64,000 nt of DNA, taken from positions 259,970 through 323,969 of the forward strand of contig JAFLBX010000001.1 in assembly GCA_017303675.1 (NCBI GenBank). The letters run 5' to 3'. Shown here in pieces: positions 34,156 to 54,440 of the stretch (position 1 is its first letter; every line of letters starts with the position of its first letter). The notes beneath the pieces are model-generated. The model was not told the DNA's origin. It did no database searches and saw nothing but the letters and a program-made list of their open reading frames with translations. A program made the translations under genes and the position numbers. The stretch comes from Ignavibacteria bacterium. Its GTDB lineage: Bacteria; Bacteroidota; Ignavibacteria; Tepidaquicellales; OLB5.

Positions 34156-35979
34156 TCATTTAAGCAGGATCATTTTTTTGGTTATGGAATATTTATCACT
34201 ATTTAGCACATAAAAATAAATCCCGCTGGGATTGCTGCCGGCTTCCCAGCTAATTTCATATTCACCGGCCAAAAACCGGCGGTTAGCCAAAACGGCAACT
34301 TCTTTGCCGGTTATATCATATACAACAAGCTTAGTAATATTTTCACTCAATCCCGCCGGAATATTGAACCTTATAGTAGTTTCGGGATTAAAAGGGTTCG
34401 GATAGTTCTGCTGAAGATCAAAGCCTTCCGGCAGCTCAATTCCGTTATTCTGGATACCGATTATACCTGTTCCCTGAACAATGCGTATTATCTGGTTCAC
34501 CTGTACGCCTGTATAAACTTCAGTGCTGCCGGAAGACCATTCAACAACAATACTATCTATAACTGCTGTGTTACCGAGACCAAAATGCAGGTCCATATTC
34601 TGCCCGCAATAACCTGACTGCCCTTCAACAGTTCTGATCAGCCATACAGGATTTCCGTTTAGCACTGCCCTTACTTTTACTTTAGACGATATAGGAGAGA
34701 TATTAGTTGCATTTGCCCCTGATAATTTTACTATGAGCCATTTATTTGAATTTCCGTTATTTAAGTATGCTGTGTTGTTTTCATTTTCTCCGAAAGTCCT
34801 TGCAGTAAAAAGATCCAGGTCGCCATCAGCATCCCAGTCAGCCCAGGCAAAACCGTATGAATATCCAAGATCATTAACAATTTCGCCATCAGTTATCTTC
34901 TCAAATGAAGGAGTACCTGATTCAACCAAAAGATTTTTATACAGACAGTTTGTAAGCGGTACATTGGCGGGACCGTAAGCCTGGGTAACATACATATCAA
35001 GATCGCCGTCATTATCATAATCTCCCCAGCCTGAGCAGGCAAAATAACCATTTTCATTAACAATGGGATCATTTACAATACGTGTAAAATTAAAATTACC
35101 GTCATTTCTGAAAAGAAAATTCTTTTGATTTTCAGAATTTGTTACAAAGAGATCGAGATCACCGTCATTATCATAATCTCCCCAGCTTGAGCTCCATGAA
35201 ACACCTCCGCTTGTTGTGGGCGGAATGCCTGTAACAGAAGTAAAGTACCCGGCTCCGTTATTTTTATACATATAATCAACAGCTCCTGATTCATTTGCGA
35301 TGAAAAGATCAATATCACGGTCATTATCAATATCTACCCAGTTGGCTCCCCTTGAAAGAAGACCAAGACTGTTAAACACAGCTCCTGAATCCACACTTAC
35401 AAAAGTATTATTTCCTGTATTTTTATAAAGCCTGTTCCGTGAATTATTTGACCTGCTGTTGGTTACTATTATATCAAGTAAACCGTCATTATCATAATCT
35501 CCCCAGCTGCATGTTTCTGAAAATCCGCGGTTGGTTACTATTGGTGAATTACCAAGGTAGGTAAAATTACCGCCGCCATCATTTTTATACAGAACGCTTA
35601 CGGAATCATACCATGTAACAGTGCAGAAATCCAGGAGTCCGTCGTTGTTAAAATCACCCCAGCTTGAACCGTCAAAGGGAAGGCTGTCGTTAACGGGGCC
35701 GGTGTTAAAGATTCGGGTAAAGCTGCCGCCATTATTCTGATATAAAAAGCTGCGCTGACCGAACCTTTTGCCGTTACTTACGTACAGGTCAAGATCTCCA
35801 TCGTTATCATAATCAATAAAGTTCACGCTTCTGGATGCTCCGCCATCATTAACAAATGAGCCTGATGTTATTTTTGTGAAGCTTTGCGATACAGCATCAC
35901 CGCAAGGAAGCAAAAGCAGAGTAAATACAAAAAAGAAAAATAAATTTTTGAGGGCGAATACGTTCATCTCAATTTTCAT
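34156..35979 (-). CDS. Secreted FG-GAP/VCBS propeller protein with ASPIC/UnbV and T9SS sorting domains
   Basis: A signal peptide (V-F-T-L-L-L-L-P-C-G) is followed by seven calcium-loop repeats of the D-Y-D-N-D-G-D-L-D-L type (about 40-400), as in FG-GAP/VCBS beta-propellers. An ASPIC/UnbV domain follows (about 415-505: W-L-I-V-K-L, V-E-G-Q-S-G-Y-C-G-Q, H-F-G-L-G, V-E-W-S-S-G), then a type A sorting domain (N-Y-P-N-P-F-N-P, K-K-M-I-L-L-K). A surface adhesion or binding role is likely. Its start is 170 bases from the divergent helical-protein gene at 36150, the first of three such pairs. Confidence 0.88.
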   Translation of the reverse strand: MKIEMNVFALKNLFFFFVFTLLLLPCGDAVSQSFTKITSGSFVNDGGASRSVNFIDYDNDGDLDLYVSNGKRFGQRSFLYQNNGGSFTRIFNTGPVNDSLPFDGSSWGDFNNDGLLDFCTVTWYDSVSVLYKNDGGGNFTYLGNSPIVTNRGFSETCSWGDYDNDGLLDIIVTNSRSNNSRNRLYKNTGNNTFVSVDSGAVFNSLGLLSRGANWVDIDNDRDIDLFIANESGAVDYMYKNNGAGYFTSVTGIPPTTSGGVSWSSSWGDYDNDGDLDLFVTNSENQKNFLFRNDGNFNFTRIVNDPIVNENGYFACSGWGDYDNDGDLDMYVTQAYGPANVPLTNCLYKNLLVESGTPSFEKITDGEIVNDLGYSYGFAWADWDADGDLDLFTARTFGENENNTAYLNNGNSNKWLIVKLSGANATNISPISSKVKVRAVLNGNPVWLIRTVEGQSGYCGQNMDLHFGLGNTAVIDSIVVEWSSGSTEVYTGVQVNQIIRIVQGTGIIGIQNNGIELPEGFDLQQNYPNPFNPETTIRFNIPAGLSENITKLVVYDITGKEVAVLANRRFLAGEYEISWEAGSNPSGIYFYVLNSDKYSITKKMILLK

Positions 35980-36149
35980 AATTTTAATTTGATTAATAAA
36001 TATTATATCAATTTAATATATTAAACTGTTATAACTCTACCAAAGCCAAAAATGCCTGTAATATTTGATTTCTATTTATATTGGATTTATTGATAATATT
36101 CATAATATTGCTGTAATATATAATAATTCAGATAAATCATTAGATTTCT

Positions 36150-37628
36150 ATGAAGGTTTCAAACGATCTTTTTGAACTGATCCGTTCAATGGATAAAACC
36201 GAGAAGCGTTATTTTGTTTTGAATTCAGGCAAAGTTAATCGCAGCAGCAAATTATATCTAGAGTTGTTCAAGGCTTTAGATAAAGAAAAAATTTACAATG
36301 AAAAAGAATTCAGAAGAAAATATAAAAACGAAAAGTTTTGCAGGAATTTTGCATTCAATAAAAATCACCTTTACGGATTGATAATCAGCAGTTTAACAGA
36401 CTATAGTTACTCATCAAAGGCAGACGGAAGGATGCATGCAATGATAGCAGAATGCTGGGTACTGTTCAATAAAGCTCTTTACCCTAAATATTTCAGGGCA
36501 ATTGCCAAGGCTAAAGAATTTGCATACCGCCATGAAAAATTCGGATACCTGCTGCAGATACTTGATATGGAAAGAATTATCATTCCCAAAAAGCTTATAC
36601 AGGTTCAAAAAGCCGATGAAATCATGAATGAAGCTTCTGAAGCTGCCGGTAAAATGCTGAAAATATTTGAATACGGAAAAACCTCAAGCCTGCTCTTGAA
36701 TAATTTCAGGTATTACGGCCTGAGCCGCGATAAAGAACAATCACTGGTGCTGGACAGAATATTAAAGGAAAATTTACCGGAAGCTGAAAATGAGGTTCAC
36801 AGCAACAGGGCACTGGAAGGATACTGGAGAGTAATTGAAATATTATCAGGCATCAAGGGAGATAATGAAAAAAGATATGAAGCTTTATTAAAAAGATATG
36901 AAATTGTACAGAAAGATCCATACCCCTTTAAAGATTATATACTAAATTACCCTGTCAATATTCTGTATGCTTTAATAGAGTGCTGCCTTCCTCTGAATAA
37001 AGCAGAAGAAGCTGAATACTTTATGTCTAAGCTTTACGGGGAAATAAAAAATGAAAAATACAGCATTGATGATTTTGAAATATTCAGGGAATACCTGAAT
37101 TTAAGGATATATTTAAAAAAGGGAGAGCAGGATAAAGCCGTTAAATTAATCCCGAAGCTAGAAAAAATTCTGATAAAATATAAAGATAAACTACAGATAG
37201 ATACAGAGCTTTCAATAATGTACCATATTACAGTATGCCGGCTTGAGGAAAAAAATTACACAAAAGCATTACATGCGGCTAATAAGCTGATAAGCCACCC
37301 TTTACTGAACAAAAGATCAGATTATGAATGTTACATAAAAATTATCTACCTCATCATTCATTTTGAGCTCAAAAATTTTGAGCTTTTGAAACATCTGCTT
37401 ATAAGCACATACCGATATCTCTGTAAACATGAAAAGCTGTTCAAAACTGAACAGCTTGTAATTGATTTTATACGCAAGCTTCAGAAAGTAAAAACAGATG
37501 ATGACCTAATATTCAACTTCAGTATACTGAGCAAAAATCTCTCACAGATAAAAGAAGATAAATACGAAAAAAATGCATTTGAATATTTTGACCTTTTAAA
37601 ATGGGTAAACGGAAAACTGAAGAAGTAA
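36150..37628 (+). CDS. Unknown ~490-aa helical repeat protein, divergent-pair partner 1
   Basis: A cytoplasmic, almost all-helical protein without signal peptide. The N-terminal 90 residues (L-F-E-L-I-R-S-M-D-K-T-E-K-R-Y-F, K-N-H-L-Y-G-L-I-I-S-S-L) match in layout the start of the two proteins at 48964 and 52989, though similarity is low. The rest is Leu/Lys/Glu-rich helical hairpins resembling TPR-like repeats. I recognise the type as an unnamed family frequent in Bacteroidota, with no known function. It stands head-to-head with a T9SS-exported protein gene and ends 9 bases from the convergent GH97 gene. A regulatory or scaffold role towards the exported partner is inference. Confidence 0.8.
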   Translation: MKVSNDLFELIRSMDKTEKRYFVLNSGKVNRSSKLYLELFKALDKEKIYNEKEFRRKYKNEKFCRNFAFNKNHLYGLIISSLTDYSYSSKADGRMHAMIAECWVLFNKALYPKYFRAIAKAKEFAYRHEKFGYLLQILDMERIIIPKKLIQVQKADEIMNEASEAAGKMLKIFEYGKTSSLLLNNFRYYGLSRDKEQSLVLDRILKENLPEAENEVHSNRALEGYWRVIEILSGIKGDNEKRYEALLKRYEIVQKDPYPFKDYILNYPVNILYALIECCLPLNKAEEAEYFMSKLYGEIKNEKYSIDDFEIFREYLNLRIYLKKGEQDKAVKLIPKLEKILIKYKDKLQIDTELSIMYHITVCRLEEKNYTKALHAANKLISHPLLNKRSDYECYIKIIYLIIHFELKNFELLKHLLISTYRYLCKHEKLFKTEQLVIDFIRKLQKVKTDDDLIFNFSILSKNLSQIKEDKYEKNAFEYFDLLKWVNGKLKK

Positions 37629-37636
37629 AAAACTTA

Positions 37637-39631
37637 TCATTTGATTTTATTAAAAATTGCGGCAAAGCCGCCCCCTTTAACCATTTTAAGAGCTATTTTA
37701 TTTGATGAACCGGTATTCAGCTTTGAAATTATGACTTTTTCAGGATTGGTGCTGCCATCTGAAGCATCAGAATAGATCATTGCGTCATATCTGCCGCTGC
37801 CCAGGAAACTTAACCCAAAATTAACATCTCTTGAATCAGAATTTGTCATACCGCCAATGAACCATGAATCCTTAAATTTCCTGGCAATTATTATATACTC
37901 CCCTATTTTACCATCAATTACAATTGTGGAATCCCATGTACCGGGAAGCTGCCTGTAAAGATCAAATTCAGGATACATCTCATAAATTTTGGGAGATTCA
38001 CACAGCGATTGAATGCCGGTTTCATATACAATGGGCATTGCAAGCTGCTGGCAGCGGGTACCTTTTGTCATGGGGTGCCGCCACCTGCCTTCGAACTTTT
38101 CTTCGGGAACATTAGTAAATGAACCGGGGGTATAATCCATCGGCCCTGCAACCATACGTGTAAAAGCAAGCGTTACGTTATGCTTGGGGTGAGGGAAGCC
38201 GGTTATCCATCTTGCGTTTTCATTTCCAAGCACTCCTTCGTATGTTAAAATATTTGGATAAGTTCTGCTAAGTCCGTCCGGTTTATATGCTCCGTGGTAA
38301 GTAACAATCATCTTTCTTGCTGCGCATTCTTCGGCAGTTCTTTTATAAAAATCGGTCATATACTGGTCGTCTCTATCCATAAAATCAACTTTAATTCCTT
38401 TAACACCGAGCGATTGGTAATAATTCAAAGCTTCGGTCATTTGCCTTTCAAGCTCATACCACACAACCCAAAGGATAATTCCAACTCCTTTTGATGCGGC
38501 ATACCTTGTTACTTCCGGCAGGTCAAGCTCTGGCAGTGATTTAGTGATATCATGAACGGCGTCATCTTTAGTAGCATCAAACCAGCCGTACCAGCCGCCA
38601 TCAAGGGTTACATACTGAAAATTATTGGCGGCGGCAAAATCGATATAATATTTTACGGTTTTTGTAGCAAGTATCTGGTAACCGAAATCCTGGGGAAATC
38701 CCCTGTCTTCAGCCCACCAGCTCCATGTAGATTTGCCGGGTTTTATCCAGCTTTCTGCATCAGGAATTTTATTGGGATCATTTAAATTCATTATTAAATT
38801 TGATTCAATAAGATCGCCGGCGTTTTCGCCAATAATAAATAACCGCCACGGGCTGAAAGCCGGAGCGCTGCCTCTTACGGAAATATCTTTGTAAACTGTA
38901 TCAGGCGCAAGCTTTGACCTTAATGTTTTACCTGATGTTTTTACAAGATGCATACCCGGATAATTTGTAATGTTAGCTTCTGAAACACAAACATAAAGAT
39001 CTTCATTCATTTTCATAGTAAGAGGAAGTGTTATGTACGGGAAGTAACTTGTTGAATCACCGGGTTTGTTATCGATATTGCTTAGCCTGTACTCTCTGTA
39101 TTCACCTTCATAACTGTGCCTGAAGCGGTCTTTCTTCATAGCCCAACACTGATAATCGCCGGCAAAGCTGAAATAGGTTTCTTCTGTAGAAATTATGAAC
39201 GGGCTCATGCTCTTTTGCGCAGGGATACCATATCTTACAGCTGCTCCATCATTATATGCCCTGAAATACAGATCGAGTTTTCTGTTTGGCGAACTGCTTT
39301 CTTCGAGAGAAATTTTTATTTCATTGCAGTAATTTCTTGAAAACGCAGATTTACCGGAATATATTCTGAAAGTTTCATCTATTGAATTGGTTTCAGTACC
39401 TGAAATTTTAAAGCCACTGTTAAGCTCACCTGATTCTTTGAAATTCAGACCCAGGTTTGACCAGTTTAAAAATCCATTTGTTTTGTACGAAATTCTGTAT
39501 TGAGGTTCACCATCGGAATTCAACCTGAAATTTACTTTTACATTTCCGTCAGGTGAAGTAACGGAATACTGCGAAAAGGCTGGATAAACACCGAATAAGA
39601 CTATAAATGTTATTACAATATATAATTTCAT
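37637..39631 (-). CDS. Glycoside hydrolase family 97 enzyme
   Basis: A signal peptide (cut after A-F-S-Q) is followed by the GH97 layout: N-terminal beta-sandwich (about 22-280: S-P-D-G-N-V-K-V, F-R-A-Y-N-D-G-A-A-V-R-Y), a central barrel (about 295-560: W-S-W-W-A-E-D-R, Y-V-T-L-D-G-G-W-Y-G-W, G-V-K-G-I-K-V-D-F-M-D) and a C-terminal beta domain. The Asp in K-V-D-F-M is placed like the nucleophile of retaining (alpha-galactosidase-type) members, so this may be a retaining enzyme rather than a SusB-type inverting alpha-glucosidase. No T9SS tail, so probably periplasmic. It stands alone, without susC/susD neighbours. Confidence 0.9.
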   Translation of the reverse strand: MKLYIVITFIVLFGVYPAFSQYSVTSPDGNVKVNFRLNSDGEPQYRISYKTNGFLNWSNLGLNFKESGELNSGFKISGTETNSIDETFRIYSGKSAFSRNYCNEIKISLEESSSPNRKLDLYFRAYNDGAAVRYGIPAQKSMSPFIISTEETYFSFAGDYQCWAMKKDRFRHSYEGEYREYRLSNIDNKPGDSTSYFPYITLPLTMKMNEDLYVCVSEANITNYPGMHLVKTSGKTLRSKLAPDTVYKDISVRGSAPAFSPWRLFIIGENAGDLIESNLIMNLNDPNKIPDAESWIKPGKSTWSWWAEDRGFPQDFGYQILATKTVKYYIDFAAANNFQYVTLDGGWYGWFDATKDDAVHDITKSLPELDLPEVTRYAASKGVGIILWVVWYELERQMTEALNYYQSLGVKGIKVDFMDRDDQYMTDFYKRTAEECAARKMIVTYHGAYKPDGLSRTYPNILTYEGVLGNENARWITGFPHPKHNVTLAFTRMVAGPMDYTPGSFTNVPEEKFEGRWRHPMTKGTRCQQLAMPIVYETGIQSLCESPKIYEMYPEFDLYRQLPGTWDSTIVIDGKIGEYIIIARKFKDSWFIGGMTNSDSRDVNFGLSFLGSGRYDAMIYSDASDGSTNPEKVIISKLNTGSSNKIALKMVKGGGFAAIFNKIK

Positions 39632-39735
39632 ACAAACTGTTTTTAATTGCTAAAAATGCAACAATTTAGTGTAATATACACTATAATTAATAATTCTGTA
39701 AATAAAATTCCATTATATATGTATCAATTTGTTAT

Positions 39736-39743
39736 TAACTTTG
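39736..39743 (+). promoter_or_regulatory. -7 box of mtaB, predicted leaderless start
   Basis: TAACTTTG ends five bases before the ATG at 39748, so the transcript should begin at or next to the start codon. The same 11 bases (TAACTTTGTAT) occur at 25572. Confidence 0.5.
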
Positions 39744-39747
39744 TATA

Positions 39748-41055
39748 ATGGCTAAATCTGTATCATTACATACTCTGGGCTGCAAGCTAAACTACTCAGA
39801 AACATCGACGTTAGCGGGAAAATTCCATTCAAACGGGTTTAACCTGAAGGAATACGGCGAGGCTTCTGATATATTTGTGCTTAACACATGCAGCGTTACT
39901 GAAAATGCCGATAAGGAATGCAGGCAGATAATAAGAAGTGTGCTTAACAGGAATCCGGAAACTTATATTATTGTAACAGGATGTTATGCACAGCTTCAGC
40001 CGAATGAAATAGCGGAAATTCACGGAGTAGACCTTGTACTTGGTGCCAATGAAAAATTCAGATTGTTTGATTACATTAACGGTTTTGAAAAGAAGGATCT
40101 TTCTTGTGTATTTACATCACCTGCAGATGAGATAACAAACCTGGATTATGCGTATTCAAGCGATGTTGAATCAAGAACGCGGGCATTCCTAAAGATACAG
40201 GATGGCTGTGATTATAACTGTTCATTCTGCACCATCCCGCTTGCCCGCGGAAAGTCCAGAAGCCTGCCGGTAAATACTGTAATAGAAAATGCCATAAAGT
40301 TACTGGATCTTGGCTACAAAGAAATAGTACTTACAGGGGTTAATACCGGTGACTATACTTATCAGAACGGAACACCGAAAGTAAATAAGCTGGCAGATAT
40401 ACTTTATGAGCTTGAAAAGCTTAACATTCCCAGGATACGGATAAGCTCTATTGAACCAAACCTTTTGAATGACGAGATCATCGAACTTACAGGCTCATCG
40501 GATAAATTCTGCAAACATTTCCATATTCCGCTTCAAAGCGGCGATCCGGATACATTAAAGCTGATGAGAAGAAGGTATAACAGGGATTTCTATGAGGGCT
40601 TAATAGAAAAATTAAATTCTAAAATTCCGGGTATTGGCATAGGCGTTGATGTTATTATAGGTTTCCCGGGTGAAACCGCTGAACGTTTCGGGAATACTTT
40701 AAGCTTCCTTGAAAACCTGCAGATAAGCTACCTGCATGTATTCACATATTCTGAACGCAGGAATACTTATGCTGTAACTTTGCCCGGCAGGGTTGAAATG
40801 AAAGACAGGAAAGAACGAAGCAGGATATTGAGAGAGCTTTCCAATAAGAAGAAGATGCAGTTTTATTCAGTTAACAAAGGGAAAAAACATAAGGTCCTTT
40901 TTGAAACTGCCAAAGAAGATGACCACATATACGGATTCACGGATAACTACATAAAAGTAAGAACAAAGCATAAGGCTGAACTTGAAAATAAAATTACAGA
41001 TTTTGAAATAACAGGTTCAGAAAATTATATGTTTGCTGAAGGAAAAATAATTTAA
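39748..41055 (+). CDS. mtaB: tRNA t6A37 methylthiotransferase (MtaB type)
   Basis: A radical-SAM methylthiotransferase that turns t6A into ms2t6A at position 37 of certain tRNAs. The N-terminal domain has the three cysteines for the auxiliary cluster (Cys12 in L-G-C-K-L-N, Cys48 in N-T-C-S-V-T, Cys79 in T-G-C-Y-A-Q); the radical-SAM motif is C-D-Y-N-C-S-F-C (Cys154, 158, 161). A TRAM-like RNA-binding tail follows. The C-K-L-N signature and K-E-C-R motif favour MtaB over MiaB or RimO. Length normal. The next gene begins directly after its stop. Confidence 0.93.
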   Translation: MAKSVSLHTLGCKLNYSETSTLAGKFHSNGFNLKEYGEASDIFVLNTCSVTENADKECRQIIRSVLNRNPETYIIVTGCYAQLQPNEIAEIHGVDLVLGANEKFRLFDYINGFEKKDLSCVFTSPADEITNLDYAYSSDVESRTRAFLKIQDGCDYNCSFCTIPLARGKSRSLPVNTVIENAIKLLDLGYKEIVLTGVNTGDYTYQNGTPKVNKLADILYELEKLNIPRIRISSIEPNLLNDEIIELTGSSDKFCKHFHIPLQSGDPDTLKLMRRRYNRDFYEGLIEKLNSKIPGIGIGVDVIIGFPGETAERFGNTLSFLENLQISYLHVFTYSERRNTYAVTLPGRVEMKDRKERSRILRELSNKKKMQFYSVNKGKKHKVLFETAKEDDHIYGFTDNYIKVRTKHKAELENKITDFEITGSENYMFAEGKII

Positions 41056-41559: not shown

Positions 41560-41566
41560 CAAAGAT

Positions 41567-44825: not shown

Positions 44826-44834
44826 TTATTTTTT

Positions 44835-46325
44835 TTACTCTTCTGATAACTTTAACTGTTCTGATAACTTAATCTGCTTTATATCATCTTTGCTGTTTTT
44901 GATGGTGCTGATTAGTTCTTTTATTGAGGATAACTCATTTCTTAAACTTTCAATTTCATTTTTCAATATTGTAGTTTCAGCAATTTTCTGATCTTCGAGT
45001 TCCCGGTTTTCTTGTTTCAGCTCCTGTATTGCTTTAATTATGGGGGCGAAGAGATCATTATACCTGATCTCATAATTTCCGTTCTCATCTATATTCAGCA
45101 TTCCTAAAATTTTTGTATCTGTACCGCATTCATTTAATGCTTTTTCAAAATCCTGTGCAATTAAGCCAAGCTCTGTTTTTTGAGTGTTATCATTTTTCCT
45201 TGTATAAGAAACTGGTTTTAGCTTTGAAATAAATTCCAAACCGAGGTTAAGCGGCTTGATATTTTCTTTCCACCTTTCATCTGAAGTAATGCTCCACGCA
45301 ACCTGGATCCCTGCATAAGTAATATTAGTATTACCAATGCGAACCTGGTTGTTTCCGGATGGCGAAGGTACATATGCATCATATCCAAGTGTAATATTAT
45401 TGTTACCGGTAGTAATGTTTGCACCTGATTGATATCCAACAGTTGTATTTTGGTTGCCTAAAATGTTATTATAAAGCGCTAAGGGTCCAATTGCTACATT
45501 GTTGCTGCCAATGGTGTTACTGTTAAGCGCTGTACGCCCAAATGCGCAGTTATTTGTGCCTGTGGTATTATTATAAAGTGACCCTGTGCCAAAAGCCGAA
45601 TTATTGCTGCCTATGAGGTTAAAACAAAGAGCTCCATAGCCGAAAGCATCATTATTAAAACCTGTTGTATTGTTATAAAGTGAACGGCTTCCGAATGATG
45701 AGTTAAAAAATCCCGAACTGTTAAAGTGCAGACTTTTATTCCCGAAAGCAGAATTGGAAAACCCGGATGTATTGCTGAAAAGCGAGTGAAAACCATGAGC
45801 AGAATTACTATCACCAGTGGTATTAAACGTCATAGAAAGATTTCCGTAGGCTGCATTATACTTTCCGGAGGTATTGTTAAACATGGTTCCCGCGCCAAAT
45901 GAACAGTTAAAACTGCCTGTTGTATTTGAGTACAAAGCCTGAAGCCCATAAGCAGAGTTATGGCTTCCGGTAGTTAAACCTGATAATGTTTGGTAACCCG
46001 TTCCAGTATTTGCTGTACTTTCCTGCCCCGTACCTGTCATTGTGAAATTACCTGACTCTATCCCGAGAAAAGTATTAAAACCTGCAGAACCTGTAGGGAA
46101 ATAAGTATGCAGGAACCTGGCAGAGCCTTTTAGAAGCGTACCATATTGGCTTCCCTGCAAAGGTTCAAACAGGTTCAATGAACCGTTAACCTGGTTAACG
46201 GTAAAAAAAGTATTTGAAGTATCCCTGATTATAAATTTTCCCCCAGTACCAAGCTTACCGTTGATATCCTGTGATAAAATAGCAGAAACTGAAAGTAACA
46301 AAGTGAGAATTATAAATTTTTTCAT
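44835..46325 (-). CDS. Exported 17-residue-repeat protein with S74 self-cleaving C-terminal chaperone domain
   Basis: The signal peptide ends near L-S-Q. Residues about 90-320 form about eleven near-regular 17-residue repeats (T-G-S-x-N-S-A-F-G-x-x-S-L-Y-N-N-T), a pattern of trimeric left-handed beta-helix or tail-fibre shafts. From Ser348 the S74 intramolecular chaperone domain begins, with the catalytic dyad Ser348/Lys353 in S-D-E-R-W-K-E-N-I and later L-G-L-I-A-Q-D-F-E. The C-terminal 60 residues form a coiled coil. In phage tail spikes and in metazoan MYRF this domain trims itself off after trimer assembly. Here it should yield a surface fibre. No T9SS tail is present, so its route out is unclear. 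Last gene of the four-gene minus-strand unit. Confidence 0.85.
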   Translation of the reverse strand: MKKFIILTLLLSVSAILSQDINGKLGTGGKFIIRDTSNTFFTVNQVNGSLNLFEPLQGSQYGTLLKGSARFLHTYFPTGSAGFNTFLGIESGNFTMTGTGQESTANTGTGYQTLSGLTTGSHNSAYGLQALYSNTTGSFNCSFGAGTMFNNTSGKYNAAYGNLSMTFNTTGDSNSAHGFHSLFSNTSGFSNSAFGNKSLHFNSSGFFNSSFGSRSLYNNTTGFNNDAFGYGALCFNLIGSNNSAFGTGSLYNNTTGTNNCAFGRTALNSNTIGSNNVAIGPLALYNNILGNQNTTVGYQSGANITTGNNNITLGYDAYVPSPSGNNQVRIGNTNITYAGIQVAWSITSDERWKENIKPLNLGLEFISKLKPVSYTRKNDNTQKTELGLIAQDFEKALNECGTDTKILGMLNIDENGNYEIRYNDLFAPIIKAIQELKQENRELEDQKIAETTILKNEIESLRNELSSIKELISTIKNSKDDIKQIKLSEQLKLSEE

Positions 46326-46337
46326 AAATTTATTATT

Positions 46338-46835
46338 TTATTTAATTAAGCTTAATTTAATTGTCTTTGTAAAATCACCTGCAGTAAACATGAGGAAATA
46401 AACACCAGAAGCCATACCGGTCCCGTCTATTGAAAGATCATAGTAGCCCGCATTCTGAGTTCCGGCAAAAAGCTCAGTGGCTCTGCCTAAAACATCAAAC
46501 AGCATAACAGATACCTGAGACCTTGCAGGAAGCTGGTATTTTACAACAGTAGAAGGATTAAACGGATTGGGGTAATTTTGACCCAGGTCATATTTTACAG
46601 GCAGGTTAACTGCCTGTGGGTCCTGTTCAATTCCAATCACAAAGCTGCATAAAGTACCGCTGCCGTATATTAACCCGGTTCCGTTAAATATATTAGCGCA
46701 AAGATCAGATTGTACCAGGACACCCATGGATGTACCGGGTTCAAATGTAAGTACACTTTGAGAGCTCAGCTTTGCTGAGAAAATCAGAAAGATAATTATT
46801 ATATATTTCATAAATTTCATTTTTAAAAATTTCAT
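46338..46835 (-). CDS. Small secreted T9SS-sorted protein
   Basis: The signal peptide lies at about 8-26 (M-K-Y-I-I-I-I-F-L-I-F), followed by only about 50 residues of mature sequence with two Cys (D-L-C-A-N-I, G-T-L-C-S-F) and then a complete type A sorting domain (N-Y-P-N-P-F-N-P, G-V-Y-F-L-M-F, K-L-S-L-I-K). The mature part before the tail is so short that it resembles a peptide cargo. The start overlaps the stop of the 55-residue membrane gene upstream (ATGA), so translation is coupled. Function unknown. Confidence 0.8.
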   Translation of the reverse strand: MKFLKMKFMKYIIIIFLIFSAKLSSQSVLTFEPGTSMGVLVQSDLCANIFNGTGLIYGSGTLCSFVIGIEQDPQAVNLPVKYDLGQNYPNPFNPSTVVKYQLPARSQVSVMLFDVLGRATELFAGTQNAGYYDLSIDGTGMASGVYFLMFTAGDFTKTIKLSLIK

Positions 46836-46999
46836 TTATTTTTTTTGTAAAAAAACACAAATGAACCGCCAATTACACCGCCAAGAGTGAAAGCGGGAAT
46901 ATTATTGAATAAATATCCTATCCCAAATCCAACAGCAGCAACAAGCAGCACCCAAAGAATTTTCTGTAACAGCAGATTTGAAGATTTAATGTTTTCCAT
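46832..46999 (-). CDS. Small membrane protein (55 aa)
   Basis: ATG at 46997-46999 opens a 55-codon frame: M-E-N-I-K-S-S-N-L-L-L-Q-K, then a first membrane helix (I-L-W-V-L-L-V-A-A-V-G-F-G-I-G-Y-L) and a second Gly-rich one (F-T-L-G-G-V-I-G-G-S-F-V-F-F), ending Y-K-K-N-K. Its stop overlaps the next gene's ATG as ATGA, and it starts 20 bases after the SBBP protein stop. It is therefore a genuine member of the operon, not noise. No family recognised; a helper for export or anchoring of its neighbours is possible. Confidence 0.75.
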   Translation of the reverse strand: MENIKSSNLLLQKILWVLLVAAVGFGIGYLFNNIPAFTLGGVIGGSFVFFYKKNK

Positions 47000-47018
47000 T
47001 TTCTATATTTTAATTTTT

Positions 47019-48629
47019 TTATTTAACAAGAATCATCTTTTTTGTCTCTGTATAACTGCCCGCGGTAAGCCTGTAAAAATATATACCGCTTGTAAGCCCT
47101 GAGGCATTGAAATTATAATTATAGGTCCCGGCATTTAAGTAATTATCAATCAGCTTAGCAGATTCTTTTCCTGAAACATCATAAACAGCAAGCTTTACTG
47201 AGCCATGTACAAGGATATTAAAGCTTATATTGGTTTCAGGATTAAAGGGATTGGGATAATTCTGGCTTAAAGAAAAATGCCCGGGAATTTCATTGTTCAA
47301 AGACTGGATACCTGTAACTGAAGTATATTTTACTGTAGCATAATCATTAGCTCCCCCATTACTTGCGCCGGTAACATATACATTACCTGCAGCATCTGTG
47401 ATAATTTTTGAAGCATAATCATTTCCGTTTGTCGGGGCATTATTATAAGCCATAAGCCATCTGAAATCACCGTTGGAATTGTACGAACATGTTAAGAAAT
47501 CATCTGCGGTACCGTAAGCATTGGTTTTACCTGTAAGGAAAACATTACCGGCCGCATCCAGCGTCATATCGTATGCCCTGTCATCACCCCCAACATTCAG
47601 AGCTCTTACCCACTGTTCAGCACCTGAAGAGTTATATTTAATTGTCAGTACGTCAAATCCGGTAGCACCCTGGTTACTGAATCCTGTTACATAAACATTG
47701 CCTGAAGGATCTGTAATTATTCCCTGTGGTCTGTCTTCTGCATTTGCGCCTCCATTATACCTGTAAAGCCACCTGTAACTTCCCGCAGGAGTAAGTGAGT
47801 ATGTAAAGAAGTCGAAACCTGTTCCGTAAGCGTCAGTATAACCTGAAATATACGCATTACCGGAAGCGTCAACTGCAATTTCAGTTCCTATATCATCACC
47901 TCCTGCATTCAAAGTATAAGCATACTGCAGGATGCCGGCTGAGTTATATTTTACAGTTACAAAATCGCTGCTGTTGCCCGGTACATAACTGGAGCCTGTA
48001 ACATATACATTTCCGGAAACATCAACAGTCATATTTGAAAGATAATCGTTATTATTGCCGCTGTTGTTATAAGTTCTTGCCCATTGCAGCTGTCCGGCTG
48101 AATTATATTTTAAGATAACAAAATCCTTTTGCGTTGCTGTATAAGTTGAAATTCCGCCCACATAAATATTTCCTGCAGCATCAACTATCATTTTAATAAT
48201 TTCATCTTCGCGCGCTTCAGGGTTTGTATATCTAACTTCCCATATTACGGAGCCCGTATTGCTGTATTTAACAATCATTATATCAAGGCTTGTACCGCCG
48301 CCAAAGCTGGTTCCGCCAACATAAACATTTCCTGAAGCATCAAGTCCGATTGAATACGCCTCATCGTTGTTAAAGCCGCCATTGCCAATGAACCTGGACT
48401 CCCATTGCTGCACACCGGCGGCATTGTATTTAATGGTTAAAAAATCAGAGCTGGTTGCGTTTACAATGCTTATACCTGTAACATATACATTACCGGATGC
48501 ATCAACTGCCATATCGGTAGGAGTATCGTTTCCTCCTGAAGCGCTGTATCTGGCAATCCACTGTTGAGAAACCTGAGAATATGAAGATACAACACCTGCA
48601 AACATTAATAGAATTAATAACTTTTTCAT
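47019..48629 (-). CDS. Secreted SBBP-repeat propeller protein with T9SS sorting domain, divergent-pair member 2
   Basis: A short signal peptide (V-S-S-Y-S-Q) is followed by eight SBBP-type repeats with the core D-A-S-G-N-V-Y-V-T-G spaced about 50 residues, forming a beta-propeller-like chain, and a type A sorting domain (N-Y-P-N-P-F-N-P, G-I-Y-F-Y-R-L, K-K-M-I-L-V-K). Expression depends on the TATCTTTG promoter at 48825 and the structured leader; a ribosome-binding site AAGGAG lies six bases before the ATG. Downstream in the same unit come the 55-residue membrane protein, the small sorted protein and the S74 fibre. It stands head-to-head with the helical protein at 48964. Confidence 0.88.
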   Translation of the reverse strand: MKKLLILLMFAGVVSSYSQVSQQWIARYSASGGNDTPTDMAVDASGNVYVTGISIVNATSSDFLTIKYNAAGVQQWESRFIGNGGFNNDEAYSIGLDASGNVYVGGTSFGGGTSLDIMIVKYSNTGSVIWEVRYTNPEAREDEIIKMIVDAAGNIYVGGISTYTATQKDFVILKYNSAGQLQWARTYNNSGNNNDYLSNMTVDVSGNVYVTGSSYVPGNSSDFVTVKYNSAGILQYAYTLNAGGDDIGTEIAVDASGNAYISGYTDAYGTGFDFFTYSLTPAGSYRWLYRYNGGANAEDRPQGIITDPSGNVYVTGFSNQGATGFDVLTIKYNSSGAEQWVRALNVGGDDRAYDMTLDAAGNVFLTGKTNAYGTADDFLTCSYNSNGDFRWLMAYNNAPTNGNDYASKIITDAAGNVYVTGASNGGANDYATVKYTSVTGIQSLNNEIPGHFSLSQNYPNPFNPETNISFNILVHGSVKLAVYDVSGKESAKLIDNYLNAGTYNYNFNASGLTSGIYFYRLTAGSYTETKKMILVK

Positions 48630-48820
48630 TTTACTCTCCTTATTATTTTATAAATTTTCTGAATTTTATTATGATCAGGAGAAGCACCCTGTAAAACAGA
48701 GTGCCTTCCTTAGTTAGCGCACGGTAAAAAAGAATTCACCAATGCGGGATAGCCGGTATGAACAATTTTCCTGAATTTTTGAATGCGAGATTTCATGATC
48801 AATTCTTTATTTACGCTAAC
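48630..48820 (-). promoter_or_regulatory. Structured 5' leader RNA, copy A
   Basis: On the minus strand the leader begins with GTTAGCG (48820 to 48814), closed by CGCTAAC (48719 to 48713). Inside is a second pairing AAGAATT/AATTCTT (48807-48801 with 48736-48730). Right after the outer stem comes a 14-15 bp hairpin (48677-48710; arms GGCACTCTGT and ACAGGGTGC plus flanks), then an A+T-rich run to AAGGAG and the start codon. The matching leader at 52646-52856 has the same plan with changed bases. Confidence 0.7.
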
Positions 48821-48824
48821 GATG

Positions 48825-48855
48825 CAAAGATATATTTTAGACTATGGCGATACAA
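48825..48855 (-). promoter_or_regulatory. Promoter of the SBBP-protein operon
   Basis: TTG (complement of 48853-48855), 20 bases, TATCTTTG (complement of 48825-48832). The predicted start of transcription is close to 48820, the first base of the leader stem. Confidence 0.65.
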
Positions 48856-48963
48856 GAATATTTTAATAAAAATAAATCACTTAATATTGAACTTATTTTA
48901 CCATATATTGCATTTTCTTAAAAAAATACTAAAAATATTGCTTTAAAATAAATCACCAATAAT

Positions 48964-50400
48964 ATGAATAATCTCATTTCATTAATTAATTCATTTGACA
49001 CGCAAACACTTGATAAATTTGGTGATTACATAAAATCGCCCTTTTTTAACAACAGGGGTGATATACAGCGTTTTTATAAATATTTCATAAACAAAATTCC
49101 ATTAACAGAAATAAACCGCCGTGAGGTTTATGAAACAGTTTATAAAGGAAACGAATACAATGAACAGGTGATAGTTAATCTTTTCAGCAGGACAAAAAAT
49201 CATTTATATGGTTTTTTAACAATAACCGGTTTGATGAACGATGAAATGGCTAAAACAAATGCACTGGCATTTGAACTGGCTAAAAAAGGATTGAATAAAC
49301 AAACTGAAAAGGTAATTGAAGAAGCAATGGAAAATCTGAAAAATGAATTTTACACAGTAGAATATTTAAAAAAATATTATGATTACACTGAACTTAGGGA
49401 ATCTCTGGCTGTAAGCTTAAGAAATTTCAGGCAGAAGGCTGAAAACGCATTGAACAGAGGTGAAGCATTTGTAAACTACTATATTCTAAATCTGCTTAGA
49501 ATAGCAAATGATTTTATTGTATATAAATATGTAAACTCAGTGATAGAAAATGATGAGATATTTAACGGCTATTTTAAATATTTTGATTTCGAAAAATACA
49601 TAAATAATCTTAAACAGATACAGTCTCCGTATTATGCAATTACTGCCGTTTTCTACTACGGGCTTCAAAGTAAAATGAATGATCCTGAAGGCAAGTTCAG
49701 AAATGAACTGAAGAAAATAGTTTTTGAAAATCTGGATTCCATGAAATACCAGGACCAGGCATCATGCTGGACAATGTTATTTGGCGCATACATTTTTTCT
49801 AATACTCCTCCCAAATATGATCCAAGCAGCGAGATACATGAAATAAATAAATATTTTGTTTCAATGGATATACTAACAAGGGATGAACTGGGCTATATAA
49901 TGGAAAACAACTATCATAATATTGCATTCCAGGCGATCAACGCTAAAGATTACCAATGGGCTGAAAAATTCCTGAATGATTACAGATCAAAGCTGCCTCC
50001 GGGCACTAATGATGATACATATAATATATGTATGGCAAGATGCAGCTTCGATACAAAAAAATATGAAAGCTGTTTACAATATATCAGCAGGATGAAAATT
50101 GATAATGTTATGACAAGAACTACTATCGCGACCCTTTCGATAAGGTGCTATTATGAACTGGGGTATTATGAAGAAGCGCTTTCAGGCACAGAAGCTCTCA
50201 GGCAGTTTCACAAGAAGAACAAAGTTCTGCCGATGCATTTAAAAAAACCCTTATTTGATTTTGCCGGGTATGCTTCAAGGTTAATTAAGCATAAAGCGTC
50301 TCATAAAAAATTTCCAGAAGATATCTACCTGAAAGCTTTAAACGGTATACCGTTCAATTCCAAAATATGGGTAATTGAAAAGATGAAGGAATTGATCTAA
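48964..50400 (+). CDS. Unknown ~480-aa helical repeat protein, divergent-pair partner 2
   Basis: Close paralog of the protein at 52989-54440: shared Y-x-x-S-P-F-F-N near residue 25, N-L-F-S-R-T-K-N-H-L near 75, L-L-R-I-A-N-D near 180, Y-Y-G-L-Q-S-K-M-N-D-P, N-N-Y-H-N-I, and an identical end type (K-x-W-V-I-E-K-M-K-E-L). All-helical, cytoplasmic, TPR-like in the C-terminal half; no catalytic motif. The N-terminal 100 residues could form a small DNA- or protein-binding domain, but this is only a guess. It faces the SBBP-protein gene across 334 bases. Function unknown. Confidence 0.82.
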   Translation: MNNLISLINSFDTQTLDKFGDYIKSPFFNNRGDIQRFYKYFINKIPLTEINRREVYETVYKGNEYNEQVIVNLFSRTKNHLYGFLTITGLMNDEMAKTNALAFELAKKGLNKQTEKVIEEAMENLKNEFYTVEYLKKYYDYTELRESLAVSLRNFRQKAENALNRGEAFVNYYILNLLRIANDFIVYKYVNSVIENDEIFNGYFKYFDFEKYINNLKQIQSPYYAITAVFYYGLQSKMNDPEGKFRNELKKIVFENLDSMKYQDQASCWTMLFGAYIFSNTPPKYDPSSEIHEINKYFVSMDILTRDELGYIMENNYHNIAFQAINAKDYQWAEKFLNDYRSKLPPGTNDDTYNICMARCSFDTKKYESCLQYISRMKIDNVMTRTTIATLSIRCYYELGYYEEALSGTEALRQFHKKNKVLPMHLKKPLFDFAGYASRLIKHKASHKKFPEDIYLKALNGIPFNSKIWVIEKMKELI

Positions 50401-50453
50401 TTAATTTTTTAGATTGAAGCGAAGAAAAATAATGCAATATTAACTTAAAGTAA

Positions 50454-50483
50454 TTCCCGGGAATAAATAATATCCCCGGGAAA
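50454..50483. terminator. Terminator between the helical-protein gene and the exported 145-aa gene
   Basis: TTCCCGGG and CCCGGGAA arms separated by an A+T-rich loop, serving convergent genes that end at 50400 and 50496. Confidence 0.6.
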
Positions 50484-50495
50484 TAAAAATTTAAC

Positions 50496-50933
50496 TCAAT
50501 TTATTGTAACTTCACCTTTTGCAAGATATTTTGACAAATTACCATATTTAAAGTTCGTTTCCTTATCATTTTCATACATAAAATATACACGGTAATTACC
50601 CGGCGCGAGATAGATCTTTTCGGTAGTGCAGAAAAATCTTGCGCCATTATGGACAATTTCATAACCTTCTTCAATTCTCATTACATATTCACCCGCAAAC
50701 TCTGCGTCCCTGCCATTTTCATCAGTTTTATATATACTCCATAAATAAAGCTGGTCATATACTTTCTCGGGCAGCTTTATAAGAAAATTCACACCGGACG
50801 CACCGTTCATGGAAGCTGAAGCGCCAACTGGGTTCCAGTTATCATCAACATATTCGCACATATAAAACTCCTGTGCGATTACTTTTACACAGAGAACCAT
50901 AATTATTATAAATACTGCAGATAGTTTTTTCAT
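50496..50933 (-). CDS. Exported protein of unknown function (145 aa)
   Basis: The signal peptide ends near V-I-A-Q. The mature part is beta-rich with two Cys (Y-M-C-E-Y and F-F-C-T-T) and aromatic residues (W-N-P-V-G, Y-L-W-S-I-Y, Y-R-V-Y-F-M-Y). I do not recognise the fold. It lies 29 bases after the sorted propeller gene at 50963-52645, on the same strand, so it is probably made from the same transcript. Confidence 0.75.
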   Translation of the reverse strand: MKKLSAVFIIIMVLCVKVIAQEFYMCEYVDDNWNPVGASASMNGASGVNFLIKLPEKVYDQLYLWSIYKTDENGRDAEFAGEYVMRIEEGYEIVHNGARFFCTTEKIYLAPGNYRVYFMYENDKETNFKYGNLSKYLAKGEVTIN

Positions 50934-50962
50934 TTTACTATTTCCTTTCGCGTGGTTTTTGT

Positions 50963-52645
50963 TTATTTAATCAGCATCATTTTTTTTGTTTCAGTATAGG
51001 ATGAAGTATGTATAGTATAAAAATATATACCGCTGCTAAGAGCAGAAGCATTGAATTCAGCAGAATAAGAACCGGCTGATTTATTTTCATTTACAAGCAC
51101 TGCAGCAAGTTTACCGGTGATATCGTAAACCATTAATGTAACCATTTCACTCTTAGGTATAGTGTAGTTAATAATAGTTGCAGGATTAAAAGGATTTGGG
51201 TAGTTCTGCCCAAGCTCATATTCAGTAGGAGCCGAATTATTATGATTAATACCTGTTAATCCTGAAGGCTGGATCTTATGTCCATACAGCTTAACATCAG
51301 GTGAATTCCTGCTGTCTTCCCAAACACATACCAAGCTGCCGGAACTTTCTACAGCAGCAGGATTAAAAGAAGTGCTCTTAGGACTTAAATATGATGATAC
51401 GGGTATATGATTTATGCCCCAGGGAAAAGTACCGGCACTGCCTATTTTCTGTGCGAACAGAAAAATATTAGGGTATGCAGTAGAAGTAGCGGTAACAATG
51501 TAAACAGAATTACTGTCACCGCATGAAAGTGAAACAAGTCCGCATGGATCAGGGTTAATCCTGATACCATTAGCCTGAAAATAAGTATTGCCTGCCATAT
51601 CGATCCTCTGAATGTACGGCCTGCTATCTGTATTTCTTTCATCATCCCAGGCAATATAAGCGCCGTAGTTATTATCATAAGTTATCTGCTGCTGCCACTG
51701 GCGTTCAGTTCCAATACCAATGGGTTTACCGGCAGCGCCCCACTGATTGCTTCCGTTCTTAACACGCTGAGCATAAATATCAAAATTGTTAGAGGGAACC
51801 CGTTGATCAATATTGGTAATTATCGCACCGCCAACACCATCATGGCAAATGCGGGGAAGAAACATATTTCCTACAGTGCCGCCGTAAGCGTCAAATCCTT
51901 CGCTTCCCCATTGTTTAACGCCTAGACTGTTAAGGCTTTGCGCTATAATTCTTTGGCCGCGTTGATAAACAATTATAGATGTCCCGGCCTGCCCGACACA
52001 TATCTGGGGATTATCAAAATAAATTGTTGAATTTGAAGTAGCTACTACAGAACCATTGCCGCTGTAGTTCCTTGTTCCATCGTGGGAAATATTTTGTGCA
52101 TGAATTTCAAATTTTGAAACCGCATTGTTATATCTTTTGTATGTTAACAGTATGCCGCCATTCTCATCAGAGGCGATCTTTCCCATTTCATCATCATTTG
52201 CTGCATTGTAAGGATCAGTAGCAGCAATATCGCCTGTCCATTGAGGAATACCGGCTGAATTAATTTTTCTGCAGTAATACATGGCAACAGAACCGCTTCT
52301 TGTTTCTTTCCAGCAGATAACAGCTCCGCCTGAACCATCCGGTATAGCCATTAATTCAGCAGCAAACTGCTGAGCTGAACTTAAAACCACACCGTTGGTT
52401 TGCCATTGGGGAATTCCGGAACTGTTAAATCTCTGCACATAGATCTTATCTGCTGATGCATTTCTTTTATCTATCCATGCTATAATAACTCCGCCGGATG
52501 CATCGCTTAAAACAACAGGGGAAAGCTTGCTTCCTGTTGCAGTGCATAACTGAGTATTTATACCCGGATTTGAAATCCACTGGCTGAACAGTGAAGCTGC
52601 GCTCAGTGTAATACAAGTGAGCAATGTAAAAATAAATTGTTTCAT
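50963..52645 (-). CDS. Secreted propeller-type repeat protein with T9SS sorting domain, divergent-pair member 3
   Basis: A signal peptide (L-S-A-A-S-L-F-S-Q) is followed by repeats of about 55 residues with the cores G-G-V-I-I-A-W-I-D-K-R and I-Y-V-Q-R-F-N-S-S-G-x-P-Q-W, seen about seven times, indicating a beta-propeller, and a type A sorting domain (N-Y-P-N-P-F-N-P, G-I-Y-F-Y-T-I, K-K-M-M-L-I-K). No enzyme motif is seen. It has the second copy of the structured leader and an AGGAGG ribosome-binding site. It stands head-to-head with the helical protein at 52989. Confidence 0.87.
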   Translation of the reverse strand: MKQFIFTLLTCITLSAASLFSQWISNPGINTQLCTATGSKLSPVVLSDASGGVIIAWIDKRNASADKIYVQRFNSSGIPQWQTNGVVLSSAQQFAAELMAIPDGSGGAVICWKETRSGSVAMYYCRKINSAGIPQWTGDIAATDPYNAANDDEMGKIASDENGGILLTYKRYNNAVSKFEIHAQNISHDGTRNYSGNGSVVATSNSTIYFDNPQICVGQAGTSIIVYQRGQRIIAQSLNSLGVKQWGSEGFDAYGGTVGNMFLPRICHDGVGGAIITNIDQRVPSNNFDIYAQRVKNGSNQWGAAGKPIGIGTERQWQQQITYDNNYGAYIAWDDERNTDSRPYIQRIDMAGNTYFQANGIRINPDPCGLVSLSCGDSNSVYIVTATSTAYPNIFLFAQKIGSAGTFPWGINHIPVSSYLSPKSTSFNPAAVESSGSLVCVWEDSRNSPDVKLYGHKIQPSGLTGINHNNSAPTEYELGQNYPNPFNPATIINYTIPKSEMVTLMVYDITGKLAAVLVNENKSAGSYSAEFNASALSSGIYFYTIHTSSYTETKKMMLIK

Positions 52646-52856
52646 TTTGTCCTCCTGAAATTTATAGTTTATTGTTGAATTATTTTCTTAAAAATTCAGG
52701 GAAAATCCGCAAAAGCAGATCTTCCCTGTTTTGATAGCGCAATAAAACGAACAACCGGTCCGTTTATTACAGCAGATAATTCAATTAACTTACTATTTAC
52801 AAAAAACTCAAAATTCAATTTTCTTCGGTTGTTTAAAGTTTTATTAATTCGCTATC
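52646..52856 (-). promoter_or_regulatory. Structured 5' leader RNA, copy B
   Basis: On the minus strand: GATAGCG (52856 to 52850) pairs with CGCTATC (52739 to 52733); AATAAAAC (52845 to 52838) with GTTTTATT (52748 to 52741); AACAACCG (52833 to 52826) with CGGTTGTT (52757 to 52750). A 14-bp hairpin with a TTTT loop follows (52697-52728, arms CAGGGAAGATCTGC and GCGGATTTTCCCTG). AGGAGG lies before the start codon. The outer stem differs from copy A by a compensating pair change. Confidence 0.75.
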
Positions 52857-52860
52857 GAGG

Positions 52861-52892
52861 CAAATATATTTTACAGCGTAAGGGGAACCAAA
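52861..52892 (-). promoter_or_regulatory. Promoter of the propeller-protein gene
   Basis: TTTG (complement of 52889-52892), 20 bases, TATATTTG (complement of 52861-52868): a full Bacteroidota-type promoter. The predicted start is at about 52856, the first base of the leader stem, at the same distance as in copy A. Confidence 0.7.
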
Positions 52893-52988
52893 AAGAAATT
52901 CAACATTAAGTAATCATTTTAGATTACTAAATTTATTGATTATAGAATAAATTAAGTATATTTTAGCTTAATTAGTAACTGCCATATT

Positions 52989-54440
52989 ATGCAAAGATCG
53001 ATATTCAGCCAAATTTCCACTTTGAAAAATTCTGAATTTGAGAGATTTTCGAAGTATGTTTCATCACCGTTTTTCAATACCCGGAATGATGTTATAAAGT
53101 TTGTAAACTATCTTGCAAAGAAGATTCCGCTCACTGCCGGGAATAATATCAGTGATGAAGAAATTTACAGGGAAATATACGGAGGTGCCGGTTTCAGCAG
53201 ACAGGTTGTAAAGAATCTGCTTAGCAGAACTTTGGCAATGCTGGACGGATTTTTTATTCAGCTTAGCCTGGAAGGCGACAAAGATATGCAGGTAACGGCA
53301 CTAACAAAAGAATTACAGAAAAGAAAATTGAACCGGAAGGCTGAAAAGATACTGAATGAAAGAATATTGGACCTTAAAAAAAGCTCAGAGTATACTTTAG
53401 AATACTATAAAAAAATAAGTGAGCTGAAGGAATTAAAGCATGGCAATTTATCTGAAAGCGATTCTAAACAAAGGATAATCAGTGACGGCGAAAGGTTTTC
53501 TGCGGTAATGAAGAGTTTTCTTGTCTCTTTGCTTAGAATAGCAAATGATTATGAAGTTTACAGCTTTGTTGAAAACGCGCCTCAAAGAAATGAATATATC
53601 GAAAACATTACAAAAATAATTGATCTTGAACGAGCCTTAAAATTAATAAAAGAAAATGAACCCAATGAATACGCGCTCATTGCATGTTATTACTTTGGTT
53701 TACTAAGTAAAACCAACGACCCGCAAAATATTTACAGGGAAAAGCTTAAGGAATTCAGCTTCAAAAATATTGAACACTTCAGACATAACGACAACATTGA
53801 ATTCTGGCAAATGATCTTTTCTTCTTATATATTTTCTAAGGCCCAAAAAGGGCCGGTTGATGTACAAACCTTGCACAGCATAAATAAAATGTATGTTGAA
53901 AAAAATGTGGCGCATAAAGATGAAAAAGGATATATTGATGAGAATAATTATCATAATATTATAATGCAGTCCATTGCAGCAAACGATTTTGAGTGGACAG
54001 AAAGCTTTATAAATAAATACAAAGATGAGCTGAACCCTGAAACCCGGGAAAATACTTACAATTTTTTAATGGGATACTTTATGCTTAATAAAGGTGAATA
54101 CAGCCGCGTCATTCCGTATCTAAGCAAGGTCAGGTCCGGAGATATTCCCGTACAATTGACTATCCGCTGGATGTACATAAGGGCTTATTATGAACTCGGG
54201 CATTATTTTGAAGCTGAGTCCACAATTCATGCATTCAAAAATTTTATATCAACCAGCGGCAGAGTAACAAAAGAAAGCCGCTCCACTTATCCTGCTTCTC
54301 TGGGATTTATTGATGCTGTGGTAAAAAGCAGGTTATCAGGCAAGAACCTTGATGAAGAAAAATACCTGAAAGCTAAAAATTCCTCATTTATTGCAAAAAA
54401 ATGGGTAATTGAAAAAATGGAAGAGCTGCTGAATATTTAA
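52989..54440 (+). CDS. Unknown ~480-aa helical repeat protein, divergent-pair partner 3
   Basis: Paralog of 48964-50400 over its whole length (Y-V-S-S-P-F-F-N, N-L-L-S-R-T, S-L-L-R-I-A-N-D-Y, Y-F-G-L-L-S-K-T-N-D-P, N-N-Y-H-N-I, W-V-I-E-K-M-E-E-L). All-helical and cytoplasmic. It faces the sorted propeller gene across 343 bases. No known domain. The two plus-strand paralogs and their minus-strand partners probably arose by duplication of one divergent pair. Confidence 0.82.
   Translation: MQRSIFSQISTLKNSEFERFSKYVSSPFFNTRNDVIKFVNYLAKKIPLTAGNNISDEEIYREIYGGAGFSRQVVKNLLSRTLAMLDGFFIQLSLEGDKDMQVTALTKELQKRKLNRKAEKILNERILDLKKSSEYTLEYYKKISELKELKHGNLSESDSKQRIISDGERFSAVMKSFLVSLLRIANDYEVYSFVENAPQRNEYIENITKIIDLERALKLIKENEPNEYALIACYYFGLLSKTNDPQNIYREKLKEFSFKNIEHFRHNDNIEFWQMIFSSYIFSKAQKGPVDVQTLHSINKMYVEKNVAHKDEKGYIDENNYHNIIMQSIAANDFEWTESFINKYKDELNPETRENTYNFLMGYFMLNKGEYSRVIPYLSKVRSGDIPVQLTIRWMYIRAYYELGHYFEAESTIHAFKNFISTSGRVTKESRSTYPASLGFIDAVVKSRLSGKNLDEEKYLKAKNSSFIAKKWVIEKMEELLNI

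Follow-up and report, generated by a model that had tools for sequence, protein, structure and literature searches.

The 64,000-nucleotide stretch of Ignavibacteria DNA analysed here, referred to as the window, contains three genes encoding proteins with a type IX secretion system (T9SS) sorting tail, each lying head-to-head with a gene for an unnamed helical protein. The exported member is on the minus strand and its helical partner on the plus strand, at 34156–35979 and 36150–37628 (pair 1), 47019–48629 and 48964–50400 (pair 2), and 50963–52645 and 52989–54440 (pair 3), respectively. A sequence-only reading had proposed that the exported proteins were propeller or repeat proteins, that the partners were of one constant, all-helical, cytoplasmic type, and that the two were functionally linked, each surface protein having its own partner in the role of, for example, regulator or export chaperone. 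The six open reading frames (ORFs) were confirmed at the stated positions and in the stated orientation, and the sorting tails were recovered with TIGR04183, the T9SS type A sorting domain, at 39.6, 43.9, and 50.7 bits, all above the cut-off of 23. The pair 1 exported protein has an FG-GAP and UnbV body and that of pair 2 has SBBP/delta-60 repeats, in keeping with the proposal, whereas the body of pair 3 remains unnamed and its propeller nature unproven, since a Pfam search returned no repeat or other family. The nearest named locus to the window is that of the metagenome-assembled genome UBA2360, with 76% protein identity. Each of the three helical proteins is considered below as a candidate local regulator of the exported gene opposite.

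Helical proteins and their exported neighbours

The pair 1 partner (36150–37628), of the KTEKRYF type, belongs to a BT2802/RusR-like branch and is homologous over its full length, in two stretches, to NF058569, the BT2802 family (E = 4e-37), at a score (128.4 bits) below the curated cut-off of 550. We take BT2802 to be RusR of Bacteroides thetaiotaomicron, which agrees with the NCBIfam name. The partners of pairs 2 and 3 form the SPFFN branch; they share 35% identity and did not match NF058569. BLAST similarity between the KTEKRYF-type and SPFFN partners is marginal at best, but comparison of the SPFFN and BT2802-like paralogue sets gave a profile–profile probability of 98.3 across 441 columns, and all three partners were therefore assigned to one superfamily. 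An AlphaFold2 model of one helical protein was all-helical and tetratricopeptide repeat (TPR)-like, with a predicted local distance difference test score (pLDDT) of 75, which bears out the all-helical description. A Foldseek search with the whole model returned generic TPR superhelices only, the weak fold matches including a designed pentatricopeptide repeat (PPR)–RNA complex and the type III secretion chaperone PcrH, and a sequence search of the PDB gave weak LapB TPR matches only. The N-terminal 100 residues were modelled as a confident all-helical domain (pLDDT 88). The proteins are basic (median isoelectric point 8.8), the N-terminal part being the most basic. A role in defence was rejected, as PADLOC, which holds models of known anti-phage systems, gave no match.

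The host genome (3.65 Mb) encodes about 49 SPFFN and 7 BT2802-like genes. Large SPFFN sets occur in most of the host genus and across many genera belonging to a second family; the 15 genomes sampled from other families of the class gave no SPFFN match at E ≤ 1e-5. Of 148 genomes sampled across the phylum, 41 carry BT2802-like homologues, mostly in single copy. This breadth rests on a search of genomes, a contig scan with narrow patterns having returned one locus. Tandem pairs of helical genes with a common gap and divergent unit occur on contig C1 at 427355/428761, 432592/434064, 729829/731334, 1039879/1041377, 1164710/1166215, and 920911/922460, and a helical-gene fragment of about 220 aa, probably a decaying copy, adjoins a full copy at C1:676041–676712.

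Linkage to exported genes was compared with 20 control stretches of 20 kb in the same genome, at positions fixed before inspection. Gene calls came from a basic longest-ORF script, and counts may be off by a few. The upstream neighbour was divergent for 45/56 helical genes and 88/338 control genes, and both divergent and T9SS-tailed for 26/56 and 4/338, respectively (Fisher p = 4e-21). After tandem copies were collapsed and three genes were considered, divergent T9SS linkage reached 40/55. In seven relatives, a divergent T9SS neighbour was found for 22/55 helical genes and 3/199 controls (p = 7e-14). Divergence from sorting-domain genes is thus beyond chance genome-wide, and the preference for exported partners holds in the relatives. 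The host genome carries at least 150 T9SS type A tails, with at least 338 candidates at first look. Neighbours other than T9SS proteins are often lipoproteins or other signal-peptide proteins and sometimes cytoplasmic proteins; the pairing is real and extends past propeller proteins and T9SS cargo. A literature search found no paper on such a helical/exported pairing, so that the earlier statement that none was known stands for the pairing in the literature searched, although one partner is near the BT2802 (RusR) family of Bacteroides.

Promoters, paired boxes and leader RNAs in the shared gaps

Strong conservation of the pair 2 and pair 3 gaps was seen in a locus of a relative (L165). A Bacteroidota-type promoter on the exported strand (TTTG-N17-22-TAnnTTTG), predicted from sequence as were the leader RNAs below, was present in 26/44 linked gaps and 12/325 others (p = 3e-19), and in relatives in 12/39 and 3/85, respectively. 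The extended -33 word TTTCTTTG occurred in 14/44 linked gaps vs 4/325 others, and in 12/39 vs 0/85 in relatives. In the window, the predicted -7 elements lie on the minus strand at 48825–48832 in pair 2 (TATCTTTG, with the TTG of the -33 element at about 48854–48856) and at 52861–52868 in pair 3 (TATATTTG).

The gaps share a layout in which a locus-specific direct repeat (box 1) stands at the helical start codon and its twin (box 2) lies 63–66 or 75–77 bp away; this second copy ends upstream of the exported gene's -33 element, at a distance of 12–17 bp. In pair 1, box 1 (AGAAATCTAAT, 36139–36149, minus strand) abuts the start codon of the helical gene, and box 2 (AGAAATCAAAT, 36063–36073, minus strand) lies 76 bp from it and about 17 bp ahead of a weak -33-like element. 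Both pair 2 boxes read TGATTTATTTT on the minus strand and are identical in L165, box 2 at 48869–48879 and box 1 at 48945–48955, 76 bp away and beside the helical start codon. Probable boxes 65 bp apart were found on the minus strand in pair 3, box 1 at 52970–52978 (TTACTAATT) and box 2, a weaker match, at 52905–52913 (TTACTTAAT). Among nine orthologues of pair 1, GRAATCWAAT recurs at the helical start codon and again 75–77 bp off, the rest of the gap having diverged; seven orthologues of the 985018 type carry TTTTCTAAAA-like boxes spaced 75–76 bp, and in the 432592 type TCTAAAAA is repeated at 63 bp. A repeat of at least 9/11 at 75–77 bp, with its first copy no more than 12 nt from the helical start, was found in 9/44 gaps of the host genome; shuffles gave 0.6 (maximum 5 in 40), and other spacings 1.15 (maximum 3). 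The relatives provide the fairer test, since the search parameters were set after the first examples had been seen, and gave 3/38 gaps vs 0.55. Related helical proteins carry related boxes (TTCTAAAA in sister clades and TGATT in the pair 2/3 clade), the pattern expected from a protein with diverging DNA specificity.

In about ten units of the host genome, a long-range helix starts soon after the -7 element. The pair 2 leader RNA element (48713–48820, minus strand) is closed by helix P1, GTTAGCG (48814–48820) with CGCTAAC (48713–48719), and is followed by a 3' hairpin, AGGAAGGCACTCTG-TTTT-ACAGGGTGCTTCTCCT (48677–48710, minus strand), the pairing of which is kept in orthologues with changed sequence. 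That of pair 3 (52733–52856, minus strand) is closed by GATAGCG (52850–52856) with CGCTATC (52733–52739), contains the inner helices TAATAAAAC/GTTTTATTG and AACAACCG/CGGTTGTT, and has a 3' hairpin, CAGGGAAGATCTGC-TTTT-GCGGATTTTCCCTG, at 52697–52728 (minus strand). Like these, units 731334, 1673037, and 427355 show a long-range helix and then a hairpin, and five others (432592, 549769, 651465, 661190, and 985018) contain a crossing second helix in the pseudoknot order a-b-a'-b', the order recurring while the sequence differs among units. The leaders resemble riboswitches and other structured leaders in having crossing helices in a 5' mRNA leader but differ in matching no Rfam 15 covariance model and in varying by unit within a recurrent order; a known RNA family was rejected on the same search. 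By reading of the sequence, a hepatitis delta virus-like ribozyme was rejected because, although the a-b-a'-b' order fits, the linkers are far too long, and an integron attC site because the arm order is wrong. An intrinsic attenuator is not claimed, since a U-run follows the last helix in some leaders and is absent from others.

Conserved pairing with compensating changes, by which a structured cis-acting RNA can be recognized, was found for the 985018 type: in a nine-genome alignment, 92.6% of cells were paired, compared with 35–45% when the sequences were slid, a U.G pair was kept in 8/9 sequences, and two pairs showed two-sided changes, a modest number. The covariance model of this type matched exactly those 11/13 genomes of the genus holding the helical orthologue, and 9/12 matches directly adjoin the helical gene, two being at contig ends and one, in G004, lacking it. 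The pair-2-type leader is kept in five loci of four genomes, and its model matched only the four genomes holding a pair-2-type helical gene. Linked leaders fold more stably than other divergent gaps (p = 1e-4) but did not differ from those of T9SS genes whose upstream neighbour is on the same strand, where the stability perhaps reflects terminators of that gene. As fold energy alone does not separate the linked leaders, the RNA claim rests on conservation among orthologues. On a tree of 55 paralogues, leader type required 5 changes vs 8.7 in shuffles (0/400), in a comparison that was not blind, because the tree was known when the leaders were sorted into classes.

The main rival explanation is that the helical protein is an RNA-binding regulator that reads the leader of the exported mRNA, acting on termination, translation, or stability, while the DNA boxes would serve another factor or form part of the promoter. 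It would account for the conservation of leaders with the helical orthologue, in exactly the same genomes, and for a leader type that follows the helical-protein tree; helical-repeat proteins can also bind RNA, a PPR–RNA complex being among the weak fold matches. However, many units, including pair 1 and the BT2802-like ones, have boxes but no such leader, and in other units small ORFs stand where the leader RNA would be. Since boxes occur both with and without a leader, the simpler account is that the protein binds DNA and that the leader adds a further layer, and the RNA-binding explanation is considered unlikely.

Cargo exchange and the proposed control of exported operons

The exported gene changes behind a constant helical gene and control region. 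The 985018-type leader and helical orthologue are followed by a lipoprotein gene in most genomes and by a gene for a T9SS-tailed protein in G009 and G006; the 432592 type has SBBP-like cargo in most genomes and different exported proteins in G002 and G001. Pair-2-type cargo is either the T9SS protein with SBBP repeats or a tail-less exported protein of 145 aa, which in the window is encoded by the second gene behind pair 3 (50496–50933, minus strand) and whose homologues are the first gene after the pair-2-type leader in two relatives (L098 and L165). Cargo cluster showed no signal on the paralogue tree (11 changes vs 9.9 in shuffles). The helical gene and the gap thus behave as one inherited module with exchangeable cargo, which favours a cis-placed regulator over a chaperone.

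An export-chaperone role for the helical protein in the cytoplasm, one of the two roles offered by the sequence-only reading, draws on the strong pairing with exported proteins and on the TPR-like fold, with PcrH among the weak matches. A dedicated chaperone would be matched to its cargo, whereas the same helical protein and control region were found with different cargo across species, tail-less lipoproteins included, and the protein tree is without cargo-type signal. Some members adjoin cytoplasmic genes, homologues in other bacteria adjoin leuA/ilvD-like ones, and a chaperone leaves the conserved boxes unexplained; this role therefore appears very improbable. A further explanation is a duplicating or mobile cassette, in which the surface gene would spread along with the helical gene and the control region, the pairing being a trace of their common history and not of a present function. 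Expansion in only two families of one order among the sampled genomes would fit, as would the tandem copies, the helical fragment, and the exchange of cargo. Boxes, promoter, and leader nevertheless persist, with compensating changes, across orthologues down to about 50% protein identity, which argues for selection on the control region, and we regard the cassette explanation as improbable.

The functional link and the regulator role put forward by the sequence-only reading are supported by the genome-wide enrichment, the promoter and repeat architecture, and the conservation of the gap with the helical gene. We propose, with a probability of roughly 0.6, that the helical proteins are local, autoregulated transcription regulators of the adjacent divergent exported operon, with private boxes and with the leader as a second layer. 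Each protein would recognize its own direct-repeat box pair in the shared gap; box 1, at the start of the helical gene, would mediate autoregulation, and box 2, 12–17 bp upstream of the -33 element, would act on the exported operon, starting from the TTTG-N17-22-TAnnTTTG promoter, with activation the likelier sign. In about ten units, the structured leader RNA at the operon start may add a second layer of control. In this view, the expression module consists of the regulator with its control region, which remain linked through exchanges of cargo. Linkage, the promoter class, repeats at preferred spacings, conservation of the leaders, and the exchange of cargo are shown by the data; binding of the boxes by the helical protein itself, the sign of regulation, the role of the leader, and the signal are parts of the proposal that we infer. 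Several findings weigh against it: the helical proteins have no Pfam helix-turn-helix or other recognizable DNA-binding domain, the whole protein has a generic TPR-superhelix likeness, and the N-terminal 100-residue model had no structural match in the PDB; box pairs are clear in part of the gaps only and weak outside the genus (3/38); some family members lack an exported neighbour; and at L207 (G004:C71:20975–21115) a 985018-type leader and lipoprotein gene lack an adjoining helical gene, the nearest helical orthologue being on another contig, which may reflect trans action or decay. A bolder version, in which the proteins form a new regulator superfamily with a DNA-binding domain unlike solved folds and about 55 private specificities, each controlling one exchangeable cargo through spaced boxes and often through a leader RNA that is inherited with it and belongs to a new class with the helix order a-b-a'-b', the whole making up a modular system for surface expression, is put forward only tentatively and is on balance doubtful.

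Among known systems, RusR of B. thetaiotaomicron has been treated as the regulator of the ribose locus next to its gene (PMC12596196). The helical proteins resemble BT2802/RusR (NF058569) in whole-length homology and in adjoining the genes proposed to be under their control, as the RusR gene adjoins its presumed target operon (PMC12596196), and differ in score (128 bits for the pair 1 partner vs 550 at the cut-off), in having exported-protein neighbours, and in number, BT2802-like genes being usually single elsewhere whereas 7 of this branch and 49 SPFFN genes occur here. Divergent local regulators of the LysR kind are alike in arrangement only, regulator and target sharing an intergenic region with sites for both promoters; the helical proteins are long, all-helical, and without a helix-turn-helix family match, the boxes are spaced 63–66 or 75–77 bp, and there is one regulator per exported gene, with dozens per genome. 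PorX, PorY, and SigP regulate the same secretion pathway but act on the T9SS machinery as a whole, whereas here a linked protein accompanies each cargo gene. At six loci of one family, a BT2802-like homologue is divergent from what we take, from its sequence, to be a leuA-like gene, with a presumed ilvD-like gene downstream, again a regulator-like position. In these family f30 genomes (L216–L221, 1–1500) the BT2802-like gene is single-copy, and the gap between it and the leuA-like gene measures about 200 bp and holds the conserved words TTGGGTGTCGTAATT and AATTACTTGAACTTTGACCAGA.

If the proposal is true, it would provide a function for a very large paralogous family (about 55 genes in the host genome) in these Ignavibacteria, broaden the range of the little-understood BT2802/RusR-type proteins to an entire order, and offer a route to one-by-one control where a bacterium has far more than a hundred T9SS proteins. 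The conserved leaders are candidate new cis-regulatory RNAs, and a constant module with exchangeable cargo suggests that surface proteins may be swapped without loss of control.

Recurring gene sets and small ORFs in the exported units

A Peptidase_S74 exported protein and a small T9SS-tailed protein form a recurring two-gene set, which in the window (44835–46835) lies behind the pair 2 exported gene and at C1:715885–717662 is directly divergent from a helical gene (C1:717856). Small ORFs of about 90–110 aa without a signal peptide stand first in the divergent unit at C1:498740–499072, 727811–728080, 843733–844056, and 1345703–1346038; in three of these four units a T9SS gene follows, and one ORF scores as fn3 (E = 1.5e-10). 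A different small basic ORF replaces the structured leader in C1 units 566314, 826416, 1036443, 1039879, 1214665, and 1356471 (L047, L054, L061, L065, and L067). It encodes about 52–69 aa with the motif GYRLKxxTHK, lies behind GTGCAC palindromes, has no Pfam match, and is ribbon-helix-helix-like by eye; in unit 1356471 the small ORF and the T9SS ORF appear to form one in-frame fusion.

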